This document shows, piece after piece, positions 5,097-21,466 of a DNA stretch of 26,370 nucleotides. Position 1 is the first letter of the stretch; each line of letters begins with the position of its first letter. The stretch comes from Saccoglossus kowalevskii (taxonomy: Eukaryota > Hemichordata > Enteropneusta > Harrimaniidae). Location of the stretch: positions 2,776 through 29,145 of the forward strand of contig NW_003124926.1 of the NCBI RefSeq assembly GCF_000003605.2. The letters are read 5' to 3'. The position numbers were made by a program, and so were the translations under genes. A model generated the notes under the pieces. That model was not told the origin of the DNA, ran no database searches, and was given only the letters and a program-made list of their open reading frames with translations.

Positions 5097-8000
5097 TCAT
5101 TTCTTAGCTGTTCTTGGCCTTCTTTTCCTGCGTGATTTTGGTCTGGAATTCATTTTCACAATATTGACATCGCACAGTTTGGTGATTGAGTTTTTTCTCT
5201 GTGATGTGTAGCTCTTTCCGGGAATCACAGCATCTCGTCCCTTTGGACGGTGTGCTGTGGTTGATTTCGCAGTAGATGGACGTGAAAATGTTTTGGTGGA
5301 TGTTGGAGTTGAAGAGCGACTTGTGGCATGACTCGGTAATATGACAATTTGTTGTGCTGATTGAACAGCCCCGTTCATTCTGCTACAAGATCCTAATGAT
5401 TTTGGTTCCACGTTATACAGTTCGGACAAACTAAAAGTAGCATAAGCTGACTTGGGTCGACCAAGTACTGTATTGTTTGCATTGATTGTATTAGCTCTAG
5501 TTGATTTCCTTGTACAACTATGACAAGACTTGGGTCTTGTTCTCAACATTTCATCATCACTATCAGATCGTGGTTGCCGTACAAAATGATGATAACCGTA
5601 CTCTGTACATGAACCATTGCACGTCTTTTTTTTACAATGTAAACATCCTTTTGCCGACTGCACACGCTTCGATGGGCAGTCCCCAGCACATGCCGGCTGC
5701 ATACAGTCTTCAGCACAGTTTCTGCTCCGAAATCTAGTACTGGGGCCTGCGCTCTGCGCCCTTTCCATACCATTCTTCTGCTTACTATTACTACTTTTTT
5801 TTAGTTTATTTTGTTTATCGTTTTCCCAGTTTATAGTTAACCACTGCAACCTTTCCAACTCAATTAGTTTGTCCATTATTACCTCTTCATCTCCTTCCGG
5901 TTTGTCTTCGATAACATCTTTCCAATCATCCTCAAGACAAGATAGGTAAAACAAATCCATATTGCAAAAAGGTACGGACAATAACTCACTGAATTCATCA
6001 TCATCCTCATCTTCTATATTTGATTCATTGTAATCCACATCGTCATCTTCTAGATCAGATGGAATGATGAAATCTTGTACTTTATATTGCATCTTCTGCC
6101 TCTCGTACCTCTCGTCATCCTCATTATTATCTTCTTGTTTCTCTGCAGCATCAGACTTCTCACTCTCTGTGTCAGACCATGTGCTAGGCTTAACTGTCCT
6201 AAAGGGCCCATCAGGTATGTCATAATAGGGTGAAGGTGTGTCAAGCTCCCCTAACTCACTCACAATTTCATGGGACAATCTGTCGTATTCATACGAAGAC
6301 GTTGAGGATCTTGTGCTATAGTACGATAGCGTTGAATGCGGCCGTTGTGACAAGGAAGATTGTGATCTTGCCGAACCTGTCCTAGGCAACCTTTAAAACA
6401 CAAATTGAATGACAATATTATTTTAGGTGAATGAATGAATGAATGGATGAATGAATGAACATAAATATTTATTGTCACTATCTCAAATTTGAAAGCAGTC
6501 AGCAAATTCATGTACGAAGTGAACAATTTTGATTGTTTTTGACAATGTTTAAATAGTTCCGTTTTATATTTTATCAAGTTAAAAACAATAATAAAGCATG
6601 ATCAATTACCTAAAAAAATTATTATTTTGGAAGTCACGTTTCATAAATATGTAAACAGAGATGAACATATGCCCTGGAATTACTTATATATACCTATATG
6701 TTATTTAAAGCACACTACAATATTCATAACATTCAAACATATACTGCGATGAATGCTGTCGCAACAATGTCTATTTAGAAATAAATGATACAATATCAAA
6801 AATTGTTTTTAAACAAGTTATCCACATCGCCAATTTAGTAATTTTTTAGACAAATATTATTGGATTGTATTATAAAATTTGGTGCAGATGTGAAAAATCA
6901 TCTACTGTCTGTGTGGTAGCATTGTACCATGAATGTTACCCATAAAGTGAATTATTTTGACAGATTGATCTTTAAGGCCAAATCCCCCAAAAAAGAAAAT
7001 CAAAAAGCAATTTTTTTTTATATGCATAATGCACAAGAAACTTATATGTTGAAGCGAGAAGGTTGTCACCTACGCACATGCAGGAATTGAGTCCCAAACG
7101 CAGAGGCTCATGGGTAGACGCTTGTTTGTAAACAATGACATGCTATGGCCATTTGACGCATGCACAGACAAACCACTCCCCCGCTTTAAAAGAAAGTATT
7201 AGGAATGATTTTTAGAATGGAATTACACCAAATAGGAAAATCATATCCTTTGTCATCAGAATAAAATCAAATCTCATATTTCCATATGTGGCAACAGCAC
7301 CAGCATTAAATGAACCTAATAGTAATGTCATACCACATTCTCTCTCTCTCAAAGAAAGATAAATAAATTCACAAGTGATGTTACAAGCGATGAATCAATG
7401 AAGCAAGTTAGTTTTGGGCACAGTCCATAGAGGGACTGTGTTTTGGGCTTCTGTTTTTTATTTTTGACGATTGATGACTATTTGGGTATTAAAAAAAGAC
7501 TATATAATTAGTATTTTCAATTATTTTATTCAATCTCCATATTTCAATAACATATTTGCTCAATTAATATTGATGCACTTAAATTATAATGACAGTATGT
7601 ATCTATGGTCAAAATAAGTCATATTTTAATGATCCAGATTTATATGCACTTTAATTTTAATAGAACAAGTACCTGGTGTTTTCAATGTTCTTTATAAAAG
7701 GTTATAAAAATTACACAACACTACAGAATCCGGATAAGCTGAGTACCCATGTCATTTACAGGGAAACAGAGACATTGTGATTTCCTGATAACTACCTCAC
7801 ACTCTGATGTCCATTTTGAAATGGATTAATAGAATACTACAGACCCTGAAACAAATTTAATTTTCCATTTTTTTTCAAATCTGCTAGGAAATGATTTAAT
7901 TGTATTTACTTGCAAAATATACAGTGAATTACGTCAACAAAGACTCCATATCGATAGTGTGGGAAACTGGTAAACAAAATATAGCAAGCGCTGACGAATC

Positions 8001-11000: not shown

Positions 11001-13513
11001 TCTGCCACTATTTATACAAAACGTATAGTGTCCCATAGCTTGGGGGGATGACATGTCCCAAATTTTGTTTCAGTGTCTAAATTATTTTTAATTAAAAGTA
11101 AATTTGCATCAATCATAAATATCAGTTAATAAAACCATAATTAAAAAATCAAGAACTGATATCGACAAAAACATATCTAGTATACCTTGTCTGTGATTTT
11201 AAAATCAATAATGTTTACACTAGATATATCAGTCTGAGTCAACATGATTTTGATAAAGCTCGCTTCTTATCAAGACATGAGTACAAAGTTTTCCATATTC
11301 AAATTAGACAAGTTTATTTTTAACACATTGTAGGTGCCACAGCGATGATCAATACATTCCTGTGTTACACATTGACGGGAATATGCCCGCAGAGATCTTG
11401 TAGTAGTTACCATGCCAACAGCTTGACTGTGTTGACTATACCTGTGAACCACAGTTATAATTTTGAGTGTATTTAAAATATGAAACTTAATTGCTGGTGC
11501 ATGTGATCATTTTATTACTACGGTAACAGTGTAACAAAGTTTTTTTTATGAAATTTTATACAATATAACTAACAATTGTTTAATATTTAATAATCTTTAT
11601 TTATACAATGTTGTGTTTGTAGTATGGTATAAATATGTACTTTTTGAGCATAGAAGAATTATATTACATGCATAATTTATTGTCTAATAAAATTTCTAAT
11701 TAAAATATATTTATTGAATTCCCCCTTCTCTCCCCTGTCCAAACATCACACTTTATACATCAGTTCTCGACTTCAAAAGAAAACACACCTTGAAAATATA
11801 CACAAAAGAAAATAAAACTCACCCTGAAACCATTACTGCGGAATTTATTTATCATCATAGTGTTGACGTCTTTGACTTGTCTGGAAAGTTTCTTGAAAGT
11901 GTCCTGTATGAAGAGGTAGAAACTTTAAGGATAAGTACTACTTGTAGTTTGAGCGTAACCGTAGCTCGAAACCGAACCCAGTTTTGCAGACTACCTACTG
12001 GCCGCTTATGGTATTTGTGTTTTCTGTTTGGTTGAACAATTTACGACTTAAAAGTTTCATTCAAAACTGTAAGGATGCCTGTGGGAGTATTTTCAACGAA
12101 AGTTCACAAAATACAAACAGTGTCTCAATACCCCCTTCAGCAACTCTGATCATTCCACTACATAGATTAACATCTACCATGTCTAATGTTCAGCAAAACA
12201 TTCTATGCAGAAACACGAATATTTAAGTTCCACATGGTTACTTGTATATCCCCCGCAGGGTTAAGTATTAACCGGTCAATTCAACATGCAATTGATATAT
12301 TCCAATTCAACAAGAAAAAATCTATCAGGCCGACTGCCTGCCTAAGCTATTCATAAATCCATCGACACAATACAACACTTCGTACTCAGTATCAGCTCAA
12401 CACTCAAAAGCGTTGCGCTTTCATACTATCTTTTCAGAACGAAACACAAAATGAAATTTAAAGAGGTAGTTTTACTCATCATAAGTATAATTATGTTGTT
12501 ATATAGTGGCTTGGGGGAGAGAGTGATATCTGGGTGTAAATTAAAACAAGTGATTGTGGTGTAAATCAAAATAGTTAAACATCCCATTGCCCATGTCAAT
12601 ATGGTGAAGCCATTAGTGGCAGATTTGTATGTAAATAAAGCACTGAATACTGAAAGCCATTTAGAATAGAGAAAACTCACCTGTGTAATTTTGTACAACG
12701 ACAAATCTGTTTTTAAGAAAATAAAAGGAGGATAAATTACAAAAAGTTCCAATTTTGTGATTATCTATGTTCCTAATCACTGGATTGATTCAATTATTTT
12801 TGCATTCAATTAACTGACAGTGAAGTAAATAATTATAGTAACATTAAATAGTACCGCCATATACTGTAATATTGTGTCTCTTAACGTCGATGTGAAGGTA
12901 AAGTACAACGAAGCTAAATAATATCTCACCAGTGTGGCTATCTTCTTCGCCTAGCTGGCCATCGCTTCGCTGTGTCCAAGATCTCCACCTCAGCGTGTCC
13001 TTGCAAAAAAAAATATACCTTTTTTTAATAAAGCCGTCGAACTTTCACCTTTATCACACTTCGCAAAATGCTCATCTAATAAGGTTACTTGATTCACAGA
13101 GTGACAATGTATTCATAAGGTTCGGTAGAGAGTAATAAAAGCGAGACGTGGAAGAGTTCGGCATTACCCGGTCTAAGGTGTTAGAGCTGAGACCGTGACA
13201 AGGTGTCGGTGGTCGAGACATCAACTCGGCACGTTCTTCGGTCGATAACCACCCAGTCCGCCTGAATTGTGCGCTGTTACTTCGGTGGTTCAACTGTCTC
13301 CGCTTGTCTCTGAAGAACATGACATAAACATACATAGTGATTATACAACAATAGCTGAAAGTCGTGAAGAATCGTGAAACAACTCGAAAAACATGACACT
13401 TACCCTTGAAACCCTCGGCGTGACGGCGATCGAGCTGGGTCGGGGACCGGCCAGTTTTGACTGTAGACGGCTGTCAGAAGCGTCTGGCCGGTCATCGCGT
13501 TCTCTGGGCCCAT
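5097..13513 (-). CDS. FAM217-like protein, seven coding exons, 625 residues
   Basis: Proposed exons, in order of transcription: 13513-13404, 13309-13168, 12999-12930, 12706-12681 (26 nt), 11903-11823, 10720-10566 and 6390-5097. Every junction has GT/AG and the phases agree throughout (2,0,1,0,0,2), giving 1,878 nt and a TGA stop. The start ATG has an in-frame TAA 51 nt upstream. Residues about 326-387 contain an acidic run, LLSVPFCNMDL, then IMDKLIELERLQWLTI and a basic stretch with RAQSAGPS. From knowledge of the family this order matches the FAM217A/B core (PF15344), whose function is not established. A double cysteine motif follows (residues 420-456), then RPKSA-like motifs and a very basic tail. 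The protein looks mostly disordered, with no signal peptide or membrane segment. A possible poly(A) signal lies at 4472-4467. The last three exons are the surest; exons 1-4 rest on phase agreement, and the FAM217 assignment is from memory of the motif. Confidence 0.68.
6428..6460. repeat. (GAAT)n microsatellite
   Basis: About eight tetranucleotide units with one GGAT variant, 38 bp upstream of the acceptor of the last exon of the FAM217-like gene (in transcript direction). It gives a spurious short frame rich in Ser-Phe-Ile-His. Confidence 0.9.
7049..7189 (-). mobile_element. MITE family 1, copy 3, in the last intron of the FAM217-like gene
   Basis: A 141 bp element, inverted relative to the copy at 2871. 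Its reverse complement shares the core through CATTGTTTACAAACAAG, CGTCTACCCATGAGCCT and GGGACTCAATTCCTGCA. It ends in CCCCCGCTTTAA on the plus strand. A segment of about 25 bp present in the 2871 copy is missing. Confidence 0.75.
7418..7444. repeat. Perfect short hairpin
   Basis: CACAGTCC-ATAGAG-GGACTGTG gives an 8 bp stem with a 6 nt loop in the last intron of the FAM217-like gene. It could be the tip of an old inverted-repeat element; no partner was found. Confidence 0.4.
7551..7671 (+). mobile_element. MITE family 4, short copy
   Basis: It starts with CATATTTGCTCAATTAATA then GCAC, and ends with GCACTT...TTAATAGAACAAGTAC, imperfect inverted ends of the 310 bp element at 25291. The two share a 36 bp segment (7602-7637 here, 25325-25360 there) with 34 identical bases. 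This copy is much shorter, so it is an internally deleted relative. It lies in the last intron of the FAM217-like gene. Confidence 0.5.
12681..12706 (-). other. 26-nt coding microexon of the FAM217-like gene
   Basis: The acceptor CTTAAAAACAG and the donor CAG|GTGAGT enclose only 26 nt. Read after the phase-1 exon ending at 12930, it codes for D-LSLYKITQ and ends in phase 0, which is what the next exon (11903-11823) needs. Skipping it would shift the frame, so it should be constitutive if the flanking exons are real. It could be missed by gene finders. Confidence 0.5.
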
Positions 13514-17255: not shown

Positions 17256-19314
17256 TCAGTGTGCCTTCTTTGTAAATCTCAGACCGCAATAACCGCAAGA
17301 ATGTGCACCCGGTGGATCCTGTATTGAGAAGACAAAAACATAATATTATCATGCTGTCCTGATATTAACTAGTTTTTGTTGAAATGAAAATTTACTAAAG
17401 CAGTGTACAAAAATGATCAAATGGAATTACTGTAAAATACTAAATTTTAGCTGGAATTAATTTTAACTTTTTGGGTGTTTTGTAAGGAATTTATTTTCAC
17501 TGATTTTTGATAAGTTGAATGTAAAATATTGGAAAAAAGGTATCCGTAAAATCTGTATTAGAAGCCGCATCTCTAATAGAAGTCGCACCCATTCTTTTTG
17601 AATAATTGAGAACCAAAAAAATCACAATTTCTCATATGCGTAGATGCTCTAATAGAAGCCGCATCCCTTCTGTTGCATTGTACCATTTTAATAGAAGTCG
17701 CGGCTTCTAATACAGATTTTACAGTATTTGCTGGGTTTTTAGTTTCACTGAATCATTCCTTCAGCTAAAATTAGTTCCAAGCTAAAATAAAGTATTTTAC
17801 AGTATTATATTGTGCATTTTGTTGCCTTTAAACCATTTGCATGTTTATTGCGCAAAATACAACAAAAATATTATACTATTTGCTCACTTCTTACTTTACT
17901 AGAATTATACTCGAACAGAGAATTAAATCATACACAAACTATATACCAAAGAGCAAAAAAAAAAAGCTTTCAAAACCACCATATATCAAAATTGGCACAG
18001 TAATCTGCCTAAATATCTTATATCAGAAACCTAGGTAAATACCCCAAAAGAATAAGACAAATTATTGACAACAATGAAAACGCAAAGCTAGCTGACAGCT
18101 GTACCATGGTTTGAGTCCAACAAAGCATATGTTGATTCTAACAAGATAGAGTGGTCTGAGAGCAACAACATGTAAAAAAACTCACCAGATTTATATAGAC
18201 TTTGGGATGACCAAGAGCACCGCCACCACCATCACAGTAAACATGACGACCAGCAATCACTTTTGGGGGTACATCATCAATTAGATTTATAGCAAACTTC
18301 TGATTAACCTACATATATATGATACAACAATAACTAAATGAGTACCGGTATGTGATTTACTGATTCGACGACCACTGCCCTAATGCTTTGTGTTGTGCTC
18401 ATAAATTAGTATATATAAATATCCTGTTGATGCAAATTATCTTCGTTCCGCTTTGTAAAAATATTTACCCTGCACATATTCTTAGATACTGTTTTATACT
18501 TGTGTAGTTTGTTTTTTTCTTGAGTGTGTTTTGAGACATAATTAGATACGTTATTATAACTTACCTCTTTTTGAGCTTGACTGTATCTTACCTGACGGTA
18601 ATCAGATTTATCAAATACCTACGAGATCAGAGACATAAAATCAATTCATACATGAAGACACTAGCGAGCCGGCATCGGTAAGAGTTCTTTAGGACCCCCC
18701 CCCCCCTTACCATAACTCAAACACTAACCCTTCCTCTCCAGTACCCTCCTCCATTTCAACTGTATATACATGTACCAATCCTTGGAGGTGCATATTGATT
18801 TATAGTGGGAGGGGATGGAGTGAGGGGACCTCAAGGAACTTTTTCCCGTCCATGGCAGACAGTGAAATTGCGTGGTACAAACATTTTCCAAACTCTAAAA
18901 TCATGACCACATAACATTTTCAACGTACAAAATTCTGATGGTCTATGGTTAATTTGCGATATTTTAGTATATATGCTGTGTATGGCTAAAATAAAGCCAA
19001 CATTAAACTACCCTTGTCAACCAAACGTCAAAAGCTCAAAACAAATAAGTGCATGCTACTTTTGAGATAAAAAAAAGACTTGAACAGAGGCTCTTCAAAC
19101 CTTCAAAATAATCCCCGGTTACAATCATAGTATTAGTAGTGTGCAAATAACATGCCTTTATTCATATATATACTGTTGCACTAACCTGCCCTGTGTGGGT
19201 GACAGTGTTGTCTTGAACATAACACCTACTGCATGTAGCTATAGGCCTTGCAATATTTAAAAATTGCCGAGAAATCGACGGACCACGAGAGCAAAACATT
19301 CTCACCGACGCCAT
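17256..19314 (-). CDS. NDUFS6: NADH dehydrogenase iron-sulfur protein 6, mitochondrial (complex I 13 kDa-A subunit)
   Basis: Accessory subunit of mitochondrial complex I. In known structures it binds zinc at the matrix arm and is needed for late assembly of the NADH-dehydrogenase module. Four exons, 19314-19186, 18618-18565, 18308-18186 and 17318-17256, are all joined in phase 0 with clean GT/AG sites and give 122 residues (human 124). Residues 1-43 hold an Arg/Ser-rich, acid-poor mitochondrial presequence and the THTGQ motif. Residues 44-61 carry the DYR...QKE segment. Residues 62-122 are the zf-CHCC domain: [17 protein letters not shown] then CGYCGLRF, with ligands Cys86, His95, Cys110 and Cys113 all present. 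The start has a strong context (AAAATGGCG). A minus-strand AATAAA occurs at 16940-16931. Introns 1 and 3 each carry a MITE. The gene diverges from MRPL36. Identification is secure. Confidence 0.97.
17542..17725 (+). mobile_element. MITE family 2, copy 1 (NDUFS6 intron 3)
   Basis: A 184 bp element with ends CCGTAAAATCTGTATTAGAAG and, inverted, CTGTAAAATCTGTATTAGAAG. Inside, the 13-bp unit TAATAGAAGYCGC occurs four times. The last unit forms the near-palindrome AATAGAAGTCGCGGCTTCTA. It may be flanked by TA, which would fit a Tc1/mariner-type insertion, but the left boundary is a base uncertain. It lies wholly in the intron between 17319 and 18185. Confidence 0.7.
18679..18846 (+). mobile_element. 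MITE family 3, copy 1 (NDUFS6 intron 1)
   Basis: A 168 bp element with imperfect inverted ends: TAAGAGTTCTTTAGGACCCC at the left, and at the right the reverse complement of AAAAAGTTCCTTGAGGTCCC. It contains a C13 run and, in its middle, TTGGAGGTGCATATTGA, shared in inverse with the copy at 20129. Confidence 0.65.
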
Positions 19315-19345
19315 TTTACTTTCAATGCATTCTGGGATGGATCAA
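19307..19345. promoter_or_regulatory. Core of the putative NDUFS6/MRPL36 bidirectional promoter
   Basis: The NDUFS6 start codon sits inside AAAATGGCGTCG on the minus strand (19318-19307), a good YY1-type motif, often found over start codons of mitochondrial and ribosomal protein genes. Nine bases upstream the minus strand reads ATCCCAGAATGCATTG (19338-19323), close to the ZNF143/Staf site, with its CCCA and ATGCA blocks. Both factor types are known from animal divergent promoters. That they act here is inference, and the transcription starts are not visible. Confidence 0.5.
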
Positions 19346-19754
19346 ATATTGTAATCTCCCGACAAAGAATTTGGTTGACATTTTATTTATCAGCGATATT
19401 TATCAATACCTAATATTTCTATGGAACAACGAATTAAAAATGTGGAGCATGAAATGGTAGCTGTTGAAATTGTTTAATTGCGTTGTGAAATGCAAATCGG
19501 ACATAATAGTATTTTTTTCAAGTTACTTAGGTGGTCTGGTTGTGTTCATGCAGTGCACGTAAACGTGCTGGTGGACAATGGTTTGATAAATTTAGCTGAA
19601 ATTCATCTATTTTCTCTAGCTAAAAAGAATTCAGTTGATCGTTTGTGTTCGGTGAGTCAATTTTATCATTTTCGAAGCTAACATTGAGAAGGATTTGTTC
19701 ACAGCACCATGTTAATTTTGTTTCCCATGCCGTGCCATGAACGACACATGTTTG

Positions 19755-19770
19755 CTGCCCTCTGCGATGG
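19755..19770 (-). promoter_or_regulatory. CTCF-like motif, opposite orientation
   Basis: The minus strand reads CCATCGCAGAGGGCAG. Its CAGAGGGCAG core fits the CTCF consensus, while the first part does not. It lies about 440 bp from the NDUFS6 start and points toward the cluster at 14849-16397. One motif alone is weak evidence. Confidence 0.25.
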
Positions 19771-20128
19771 GATGTTCGTATCCCAGACAATTATTTGATA
19801 TATTATTCTGCAATATTTTTAACAGAAGGGGCCATTACAGAATTGGGTCTACATTGTCGAAATTGTAGAAACAGTTAAGATTCTTCCAAGAATTTATAAG
19901 ATAAGGGGATGTAACGTGTTTTTTTTTCTCTCTCAAGGGCAGCATGTACTAATTGAGCTGTTCACACAGTCATCTGATGTACAATTAAGTCATAACAAAA
20001 TGAAGGCCATAACTAAAAGCCTTCAAAACGGCCAACAAAATGTTTATGGTTTTATGGATTTGTTTCAAATATGCATTGAAACGATAATATTCACTGGTAA
20101 AGATGAATTGAAGTTTAAATTTTGGGAA

Positions 20129-20311
20129 AGAGTTCTTTAGGGCAAACTCGTCCGTAACCCAAACCCTAACAATTCAGCCCCAATGTAATTCAATATGCCC
20201 CTCCAAATAACTGTAAATGACCTGAATAGGGGTATATAGAATGGGGGAGAAGCACTGGCATGGCATTGTTAGGATTAGAGTTATGAGTGAGGGGACTATA
20301 AGGAACTCTTA
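20129..20311 (-). mobile_element. MITE family 3, copy 2 (MRPL36 5' side)
   Basis: A 183 bp element with ends AAGAGTTCTTTAGGG and, inverted, TAAGAGTTCCTTATAGTCCC. A second nested inverted pair (AACCCTAACAATT / ATTGTTAGGATTAGAG) lies inside. Its minus strand carries TTGGAGGGGCATATTGAATT, matching the centre of the copy at 18679, so the two are in opposite orientation. Confidence 0.65.
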
Positions 20312-20367
20312 CTAAATGTTGAACCTCTCTTACTGAACTATGTGTGTAAGAAAAGCATACAACGATA

Positions 20368-20506
20368 CAGTGGCGGATCTAGGGGTCCATGCCCCCCCCC
20401 CCCCCAACGCATGACGATACATATCTGGATTATGCATAGCTTCTCTGCGACTTCGCTCCATAATGTTAAGCGAAGCTCCCCCCCCCCCAAATACATTTTG
20501 CCACTG
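20368..20506. mobile_element. hAT-type MITE with perfect 8-bp target duplication
   Basis: The element starts CAGTGGCGGATCTAGGGG and ends CATTTTGCCACTG. It is flanked on both sides by CAACGATA (20360-20367 and 20507-20514), an exact 8 bp target site duplication. CAGTGGCG tips with an 8 bp duplication are the hallmark of hAT transposons. Long C runs lie near both ends. There is no transposase, so it was moved in trans. Confidence 0.85.
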
Positions 20507-20796
20507 CAACGATATAGTATTCAGTTTGTGCATGGAGGTATATGGTTTGTGCTTTCAGAAGCTCATCACAGGCACATACAACCAGGCTGACCCAACAAGG
20601 TTTTTGAACTTTCATTCCGACTTAAGATCCCTACAAAATCAGTTCTGTTAGAGAACGCACTGCTAGCTGATGCATGTTTAATGAAGAGGCGTCAAAATGA
20701 TATTACACTTTCTCCAGGTAGTCTAAGTTCGACAACACTGACATGCATCTCCCAAAAATTATATTTCCATGACTACAGTCGGTAGAGCATGAAATA

Positions 20797-20984
20797 ATGT
20801 AAAATATGTACATGTATTAGAAGTCGCAGCTTCTATTAAAATGGTACAATGCAACAGAGTGGATGCGGCATCTATTAGAGCATCAACACATATGAAAAAT
20901 GATGTTTTTTTGGTTCTCAATTGTTCACAAAAAATGGGTGCGACTTCTATTAGGGATGCAGCTTTTAATACAGATTTTACGGTA
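20797..20984 (-). mobile_element. MITE family 2, copy 2 (MRPL36 5'UTR intron)
   Basis: Inverted relative to the element at 17542 and highly similar along its whole length; shared blocks include TTCTATTAAAATGGTACAAT and TTTTTTTGGTTCTCAATT. The left end carries a small insertion (ATGTACATGTATTAG). It ends 75 bp before the predicted acceptor of the MRPL36 coding exon. Confidence 0.7.
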
Positions 20985-21076
20985 GTTGATGTATTGTCAT
21001 ATTTTGACAATTTACTTAAATCTTACTGGCTGGTAACAATTTTCTTTTTATTTTACAGCAAGTTGTCAATAAAAAG

Positions 21077-21466
21077 ATGGTTTCCTTGATCGGGAAATGC
21101 AGCATGGTGCTATCAACTCTGCCTCGAAGGTTGTGTATTCCTGTAAATTCAATGTATAAAATAATAAACTCTCCATACAGCCTGTTTCATCGCTATGCAC
21201 TTTTACCAGTTACACAACAGTCATTAGTTCTACCAGTAAAGCAGCAGAATTCACTGCAAAGAACGCCTACCGTACAACTTGTAAATTCATTCAAATCCAA
21301 AGTGAAACTGCGAAAAAGATGCGAAGATTGTTACTTTGTTAAACGAGAAGGACGACGATACGTCATGTGTAAGACTCACCCCAGGCACAAACAGAGAAGT
21401 TTAATTGTTGACAACAAACAACCCTATCCAAGGAAGTATCTTACTGACCAAGATTTCTGGTACTAA
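21077..21466 (+). CDS. MRPL36: Mitochondrial large ribosomal subunit protein bL36m
   Basis: Small zinc-ribbon protein of the mitochondrial large ribosomal subunit. The coding sequence is one uninterrupted exon of 129 residues; human MRPL36 is 103. The conserved part is residues about 72-109, with Cys82-x2-Cys85-x12-Cys98-x5-His104 as in bacterial L36 and the basic KQR end. Residues 1-70 are Arg/Ser/Leu-rich with few acids, fitting a cleaved mitochondrial presequence. A C-terminal extension of about 22 residues ends in DFWY. The ATG has a good context (AAGATGG). An acceptor (TTTTTATTTTACAG, exon from 21059) sits 18 nt upstream, so the first exon is untranslated and further left. A GTGAGT donor at 19652 is one candidate, placing the transcription start near NDUFS6. 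Possible poly(A) signals are at 21876-21881 and 22005-22010. Confidence 0.95.

Follow-up and report, generated by a model that had tools for sequence, protein, structure and literature searches.

A divergent pair of nuclear genes for mitochondrial proteins, NDUFS6 and MRPL36, was identified in a 26,370-nucleotide stretch of Saccoglossus kowalevskii DNA (contig NW_003124926.1; the whole stretch analyzed is referred to here as the window), and the order and orientation of the two genes are the same as in human. A distance of 1,763 bp separates the first bases of the two ATG codons; positions 17256-21466 cover both genes, with the two stop codons at the outer ends. An earlier reading of the same letters (the original prediction) had named both genes, placed them head to head on opposite strands with about 1.8 kb between their starts, likened this arrangement to that of human, and proposed a single shared promoter. 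The identities, the orientation, the spacing and the human parallel were confirmed, and a promoter shared by NDUFS6 and MRPL36 is plausible from the signals between them.

The NDUFS6 gene model has GT/AG borders at all three of its introns and gives a 122-residue product in a frame free of stops. The protein carries the expected C-terminal domain, zf-CHCC in Pfam (expectation value, E, 1.3e-18), and its homology to the 13 kDa subunit of complex I was established by a search of solved structures, in which it matched 25 distinct chain sequences named NDUFS6 at E ≤0.001 (best E 4.4e-36). The splice sites of the model score 7.7, 7.0 and 3.9 as donors and 6.5, 3.3 and -0.9 as acceptors. The MRPL36 protein has the Pfam domain Ribosomal_L36 at residues 72-108 of 129 (E 6.7e-16), with an N-terminal extension ahead of it as in mitochondrial bL36m, and its best solved relative is chain 3j7y_4, a mitochondrial bL36m of 103 residues (E 2e-14, with the match at 63-102).

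Exon 2 of NDUFS6 also holds a strong alternative donor, CAG/gtaaga (the slash marks the exon border) at 18591 on the minus strand, which scores 7.2 and lies 27 nt before the model donor; if used, it would cause the in-frame loss of nine residues. The C-terminus of MRPL36 runs 21 residues past residue 108, the end of the match to solved bL36m, and the solved chain has one residue more there. Viral contigs searched with MRPL36 gave 40 pattern matches and no relative. The same contigs searched for NDUFS6 gave one locus, 47% identical over residues 40-70 (E 3e-4, a value that applies among the candidates only). This match was taken as chance, since the open frames of the locus read as those of a phage and no other part of it resembled NDUFS6 below E 0.6.

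In the annotation of methylation arrays, the label TSS200 denotes positions 0-200 bp, and TSS1500 positions 200-1500 bp, upstream of a transcription start site (TSS). The human CpG sites cg05926253 and cg07875360 are each given, in the available part of a published array annotation, as 'NDUFS6;MRPL36', chromosome 5, 'TSS200;TSS1500' and 'Island' (PMC6537208). Because these sites lie upstream of both starts, the human pair would be divergent with 200-1,700 bp between the annotated starts, and its adjacency and orientation were thus read from the annotation of two CpGs rather than from human sequence. The human locus at 5p15.33 therefore resembles the present one in holding the same two genes in divergent orientation, with CpGs upstream of both starts. 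In mouse, the accessible text of one paper places Ndufs6 and Mrpl36 as neighbours between Irx4 and Lpcat1 (PMC5591014), whereas the neighbour recognized in the window is a FAM217-family exon at 5100-6392. Neither a homeobox (Irx4-like) nor an acyltransferase (Lpcat1-like) domain was matched in Pfam among 26 proteins or open stretches of the window, a set that includes 20 of the 82 unassigned open stretches listed and in which domains split between exons could escape. A genome-wide association signal at 5p15.33 has NDUFS6 and MRPL36 nearby, the word 'bidirectional' in that paper concerning another locus (PMC9329799), and both genes are in the 5p15 gene list of a paper on cri-du-chat syndrome (PMC6687350); a common promoter of the two is not discussed in the available sections of either. 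Chance alone is unlikely to have made these two genes divergent neighbours in two such distant animals; by our estimate the probability is on the order of 1e-5 to 1e-4 for a given pair under random gene order.

A compact promoter for both genes is suggested by splice signals on the plus strand of 19315-21100, the region scanned; the rates of donors, acceptors and CpG with which they are compared were taken over the whole window with its genes. The best donor between the genes is TCG/gtgagt at 19652 (score 5.5, the next being 2.1), which is 338 bp away from the start codon of NDUFS6, and the best acceptor is tttattttacag, followed by CAA, immediately before 21059 (score 9.0), 18 nt ahead of the MRPL36 ATG. 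A score of 9.0 is reached by three acceptors in the window on both strands, the 21059 site included (0.057 per kb of strand), and this site outscores all three acceptors of the NDUFS6 model. In this arrangement, the first exon of MRPL36 would be noncoding, with its last base at 19651, and a leader intron of 1.4 kb would separate it from the coding exon, which would begin at 21059; a small extra leader exon may lie between them. A noncoding exon placed so far upstream would leave a promoter interval of a few hundred bp instead of 1.8 kb, and a compact shared promoter would then be possible in spite of the 1.8-kb spacing of the start codons. Both genes might then start within a single zone only a few hundred bp long, at about 19.3-19.65 kb, and be transcribed away from each other; a ZNF143-like and a YY1-like site are found in this zone, and the corresponding factors may act there. 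The alternative is that the pair has been kept by descent alone, with separate promoters, an MRPL36 start somewhere in 19.7-21.0 kb, and an adjacency that slow rearrangement of the genome has left unbroken. Against this alternative stands the acceptor-like sequence that immediately precedes the MRPL36 ATG and points to an upstream exon.

Base composition and motifs point to the same zone. The observed/expected CpG ratio, which has a mean of 0.59 (standard deviation 0.32) over the whole window, is 1.11, 1.01 and 1.01 in 300-bp segments starting at 19201, 19301 and 19401. The ratio is 0.71, 0.66, 0.64 and 0.57 in segments starting at 20601, 20701, 20801 and 20901, that is, before or at the MRPL36 start, and the absence of a separate rise ahead of 21059 in these four segments again counts against descent with separate promoters. 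At the left edge of the zone is TCCCAGAATGCA, which we take to be a ZNF143/Staf-like motif and which has no other match in the window at up to one mismatch (0.10 expected; at least one match in 10 of 100 shuffles). Next to it, AAAATGGCG, presumably a YY1-like motif, is the sole exact match in the window (0.16 expected; at least one in 14 of 100 shuffles); both are candidate sites by their sequence alone. A Staf consensus matched the window 13 times at up to three mismatches, compared with 7.8 expected and with as many in 2 of 100 shuffles, a result that is uninformative alone; at two mismatches it has two sites in the window, one of which is 19321-19338. According to the accessible part of a preprint, which draws on the work of others, ZNF143 recognizes the core TGGGA, stimulates initiation, and activates nuclear genes for mitochondrial proteins (PMC11118474).

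Table 1 Coordinates of the NDUFS6-MRPL36 pair and of the candidate elements between and around the two genes (positions in the window)
Feature	Position	Strand	Basis or remark
NDUFS6 (complex I 13 kDa subunit)	17256..19314	minus	4 coding exons; spliced frame, Pfam, solved chains
NDUFS6 exons	19314-19186, 18618-18565, 18308-18186, 17318-17256	minus	
YY1-like AAAATGGCG over NDUFS6 start codon	19309..19317	minus	motif search of window
Likely shared promoter zone and putative MRPL36 leader exon region	19315..19651		CpG, motifs at left edge, donor at right edge
ZNF143/Staf-like core TCCCAGAATGCA, exact	19326..19337	minus	motif search of window
Chain of same-frame open stretches weighed as a third gene, unsupported	19421..20785	plus	
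Putative 5' leader intron of MRPL36, 1,407 nt	19652..21058	plus	best donor and best acceptor of interval
Short repeat resembling a miniature inverted-repeat transposable element (MITE)	20792..20982	minus	inverted copy of 17544-17729 in last NDUFS6 intron
MRPL36 (bL36m)	21077..21466	plus	single coding exon, 129 residues; Pfam and solved bL36m

A number of observations weigh against an MRPL36 leader exon next to NDUFS6 and against the promoter zone drawn from it. All splice scores come from a generic matrix. The acceptor before 19938 scores 8.8, nearly equal to that before 21059, and alternative leader splicing or a further small leader exon is therefore possible. With both strands counted, the window has 14 donors as good as 19652 (0.265 per kb of strand), a rate at which chance alone would put about 0.5 of them in the interval. 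Seven ATGs fall within 19340-19651, and a leader starting near NDUFS6 would thus contain upstream ATGs unless transcription begins after 19578. The ten highest CpG ratios of the window (1.24-1.69) all lie elsewhere, which makes 1.11 not exceptional and the support from CpG weak. The ZNF143-like and YY1-like sites were chosen from about ten patterns tried; exact patterns for NRF1, ETS, the cAMP response element (CRE) and SP1 have no site in the promoter zone, CCAAT was not found in 18900-19800, and the promoter check gave a single initiator-like (Inr-like) site, which is on the plus strand, the minus strand having none. Among human divergent pairs, expression is described in the available text of one study as less synchronized when the distance between starts nears 1 kb (PMC12672016). 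The distance between the two start codons also seems not to be tightly held, because a MITE-like repeat has added about 190 bp between the genes (86% identity with the copy at 17544-17729 over 192 aligned positions); an insertion of this repeat within an intron would leave a shared promoter unharmed.

The proposal that MRPL36 has a leader exon and that both genes use a common promoter zone is judged to be evenly balanced between right and wrong, given the competing acceptor before 19938 and the motif patterns that found no site. As regards the single shared promoter of the original prediction, a candidate leader donor close to the NDUFS6 ATG, a CpG peak and two motifs give it indirect support. 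The reading in which the pair persists by descent alone draws on the 1.76 kb between the start codons, on the repeat insertion accepted by the intergenic interval, on the awkwardness of a long leader given the seven ATGs, and on the acceptor before 19938, which together with a moderate donor at 20097 (2.1) would allow MRPL36 to start elsewhere in the interval; with the upstream acceptor and the flat CpG profile set against these, it is considered a serious contender that falls somewhat short of probable.

It was also considered whether the promoter of NDUFS6 is shared with an unrecognized plus-strand gene instead of with MRPL36, starting at an ATG at 19421 (107 bp from that of NDUFS6) and stopping at 20785. 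Open stretches at 19478-19681, 19823-20140 and 20591-20785 are in one frame and can be joined free of stops into 166 or 189 residues, the base use by codon position is coding-like (G+C of 0.45/0.31/0.34), and the joined model scores -0.007 per codon, compared with -0.054 for held-out MRPL36 and with -0.495 and -0.345 for the other frames of the model. However, held-out NDUFS6 (0.097) and the FAM217 exon (0.108) outscore the joined model, its middle piece is under background (-0.164 per codon) and has an AlphaFold predicted local distance difference test (pLDDT) value of 40.5 when folded without relatives, and gene-less open stretches of 100-130 codons are found elsewhere in the window. The donors required, at 19457 (0.2) and 19874 (-7.2, in one model only), and the acceptors required, at 19523 (-3.4) and 20652 (-5.2), are weak, alongside better ones. 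No Pfam match above the cut-off was found for the pieces or the joined models, and in the search of solved structures the best E was 0.75 for the two final joined models and 0.19 for the first. Because its splice sites are weak, such a gene is judged highly improbable. A weak match to PUFD in the first gene models (E 0.0036 and 0.014; 17.8 and 15.9 bits, the cut-off being 29.5) was gone in two better-phased models, which had none at E ≤10.

Pairs of genes that stay neighbours in distantly related animals form a class already known, and one such pair is for this reason not very surprising. Ancient metazoan microsynteny is reportedly maintained by cis-regulatory constraint (the view attributed to Irimia et al. 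in 2012), and NDUFS6-MRPL36 is like the pairs of that class in being common to a distant animal and vertebrates. The accessible portions of two papers define divergent pairs with bidirectional promoters by an inter-TSS distance under 1,000 bp (PMC2670823, PMC12672016). NDUFS6 and MRPL36 share with such pairs the head-to-head arrangement of housekeeping genes, whereas the 1,763 bp given here is a start-codon distance only. Conservation extends to Drosophila for 66, and to C. elegans for 50, of 1,399 human divergent pairs (PMC12672016), and most human divergent pairs are suggested to postdate the parting of protostomes and deuterostomes (PMC2670823), as far as the available text of these papers goes. 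No account of NDUFS6 microsynteny or of NDUFS6-IRX4 synteny was found in the open-licence papers searched, and the pair may still be described elsewhere.

By these comparisons NDUFS6-MRPL36 looks like an ordinary, anciently kept divergent pair that may share a promoter, and what is added here is evidence, suggestive only, from splice signals and composition, for an MRPL36 leader exon near NDUFS6. It is doubtful that the whole architecture, with a ZNF143-type bidirectional promoter by NDUFS6 and a noncoding first exon and leader intron in MRPL36, is ancestral to bilaterians and has been held as one regulatory unit for more than 0.5 billion years. What is shown is the two genes, their orientation and their spacing; the coupling of the respiratory chain to the mitoribosome, and the selection against separation of the pair, that the original prediction added would be inferences beyond these. 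Should most animal phyla turn out to retain the pair together with a common promoter, NDUFS6-MRPL36 would provide a compact natural test of gene order held by shared promoters, and a test also of the balance between nuclear genes for respiration and mitochondrial translation; for now, the evidence makes it a further example of a conserved divergent pair.

Elsewhere in the window, searches for RNA families (at the gathering threshold) and for tRNAs found none, and the only other gene recognized is represented by the FAM217-family exon, which is on the minus strand and above the Pfam cut-off (E 1.2e-8). This exon and the split NDUFS6 were taken to mark the sequence as animal DNA. Two open stretches on the plus strand have sub-threshold Pfam matches, that at 11718-12032 to SPC25, the 25 kDa subunit of signal peptidase (E 0.024; 14.8 bits, where the cut-off is 24.3), and that at 421-810 to zf-C3HC4_2, a zinc finger of the RING type (E 0.0054; 16.9 bits, where the cut-off is 27). 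The last intron of NDUFS6 contains nested elements at 17428-17804, in which outer inverted repeats (17428-17468 and 17763-17804, 88%) enclose an inner element at 17544-17729 with perfect inverted ends of 23 nt. The G+C content of the window is 34.0%, and runs of 11 to 14 C residues are located at 18692-18713, 20391-20412 and 20475-20496 amid AT-rich DNA.

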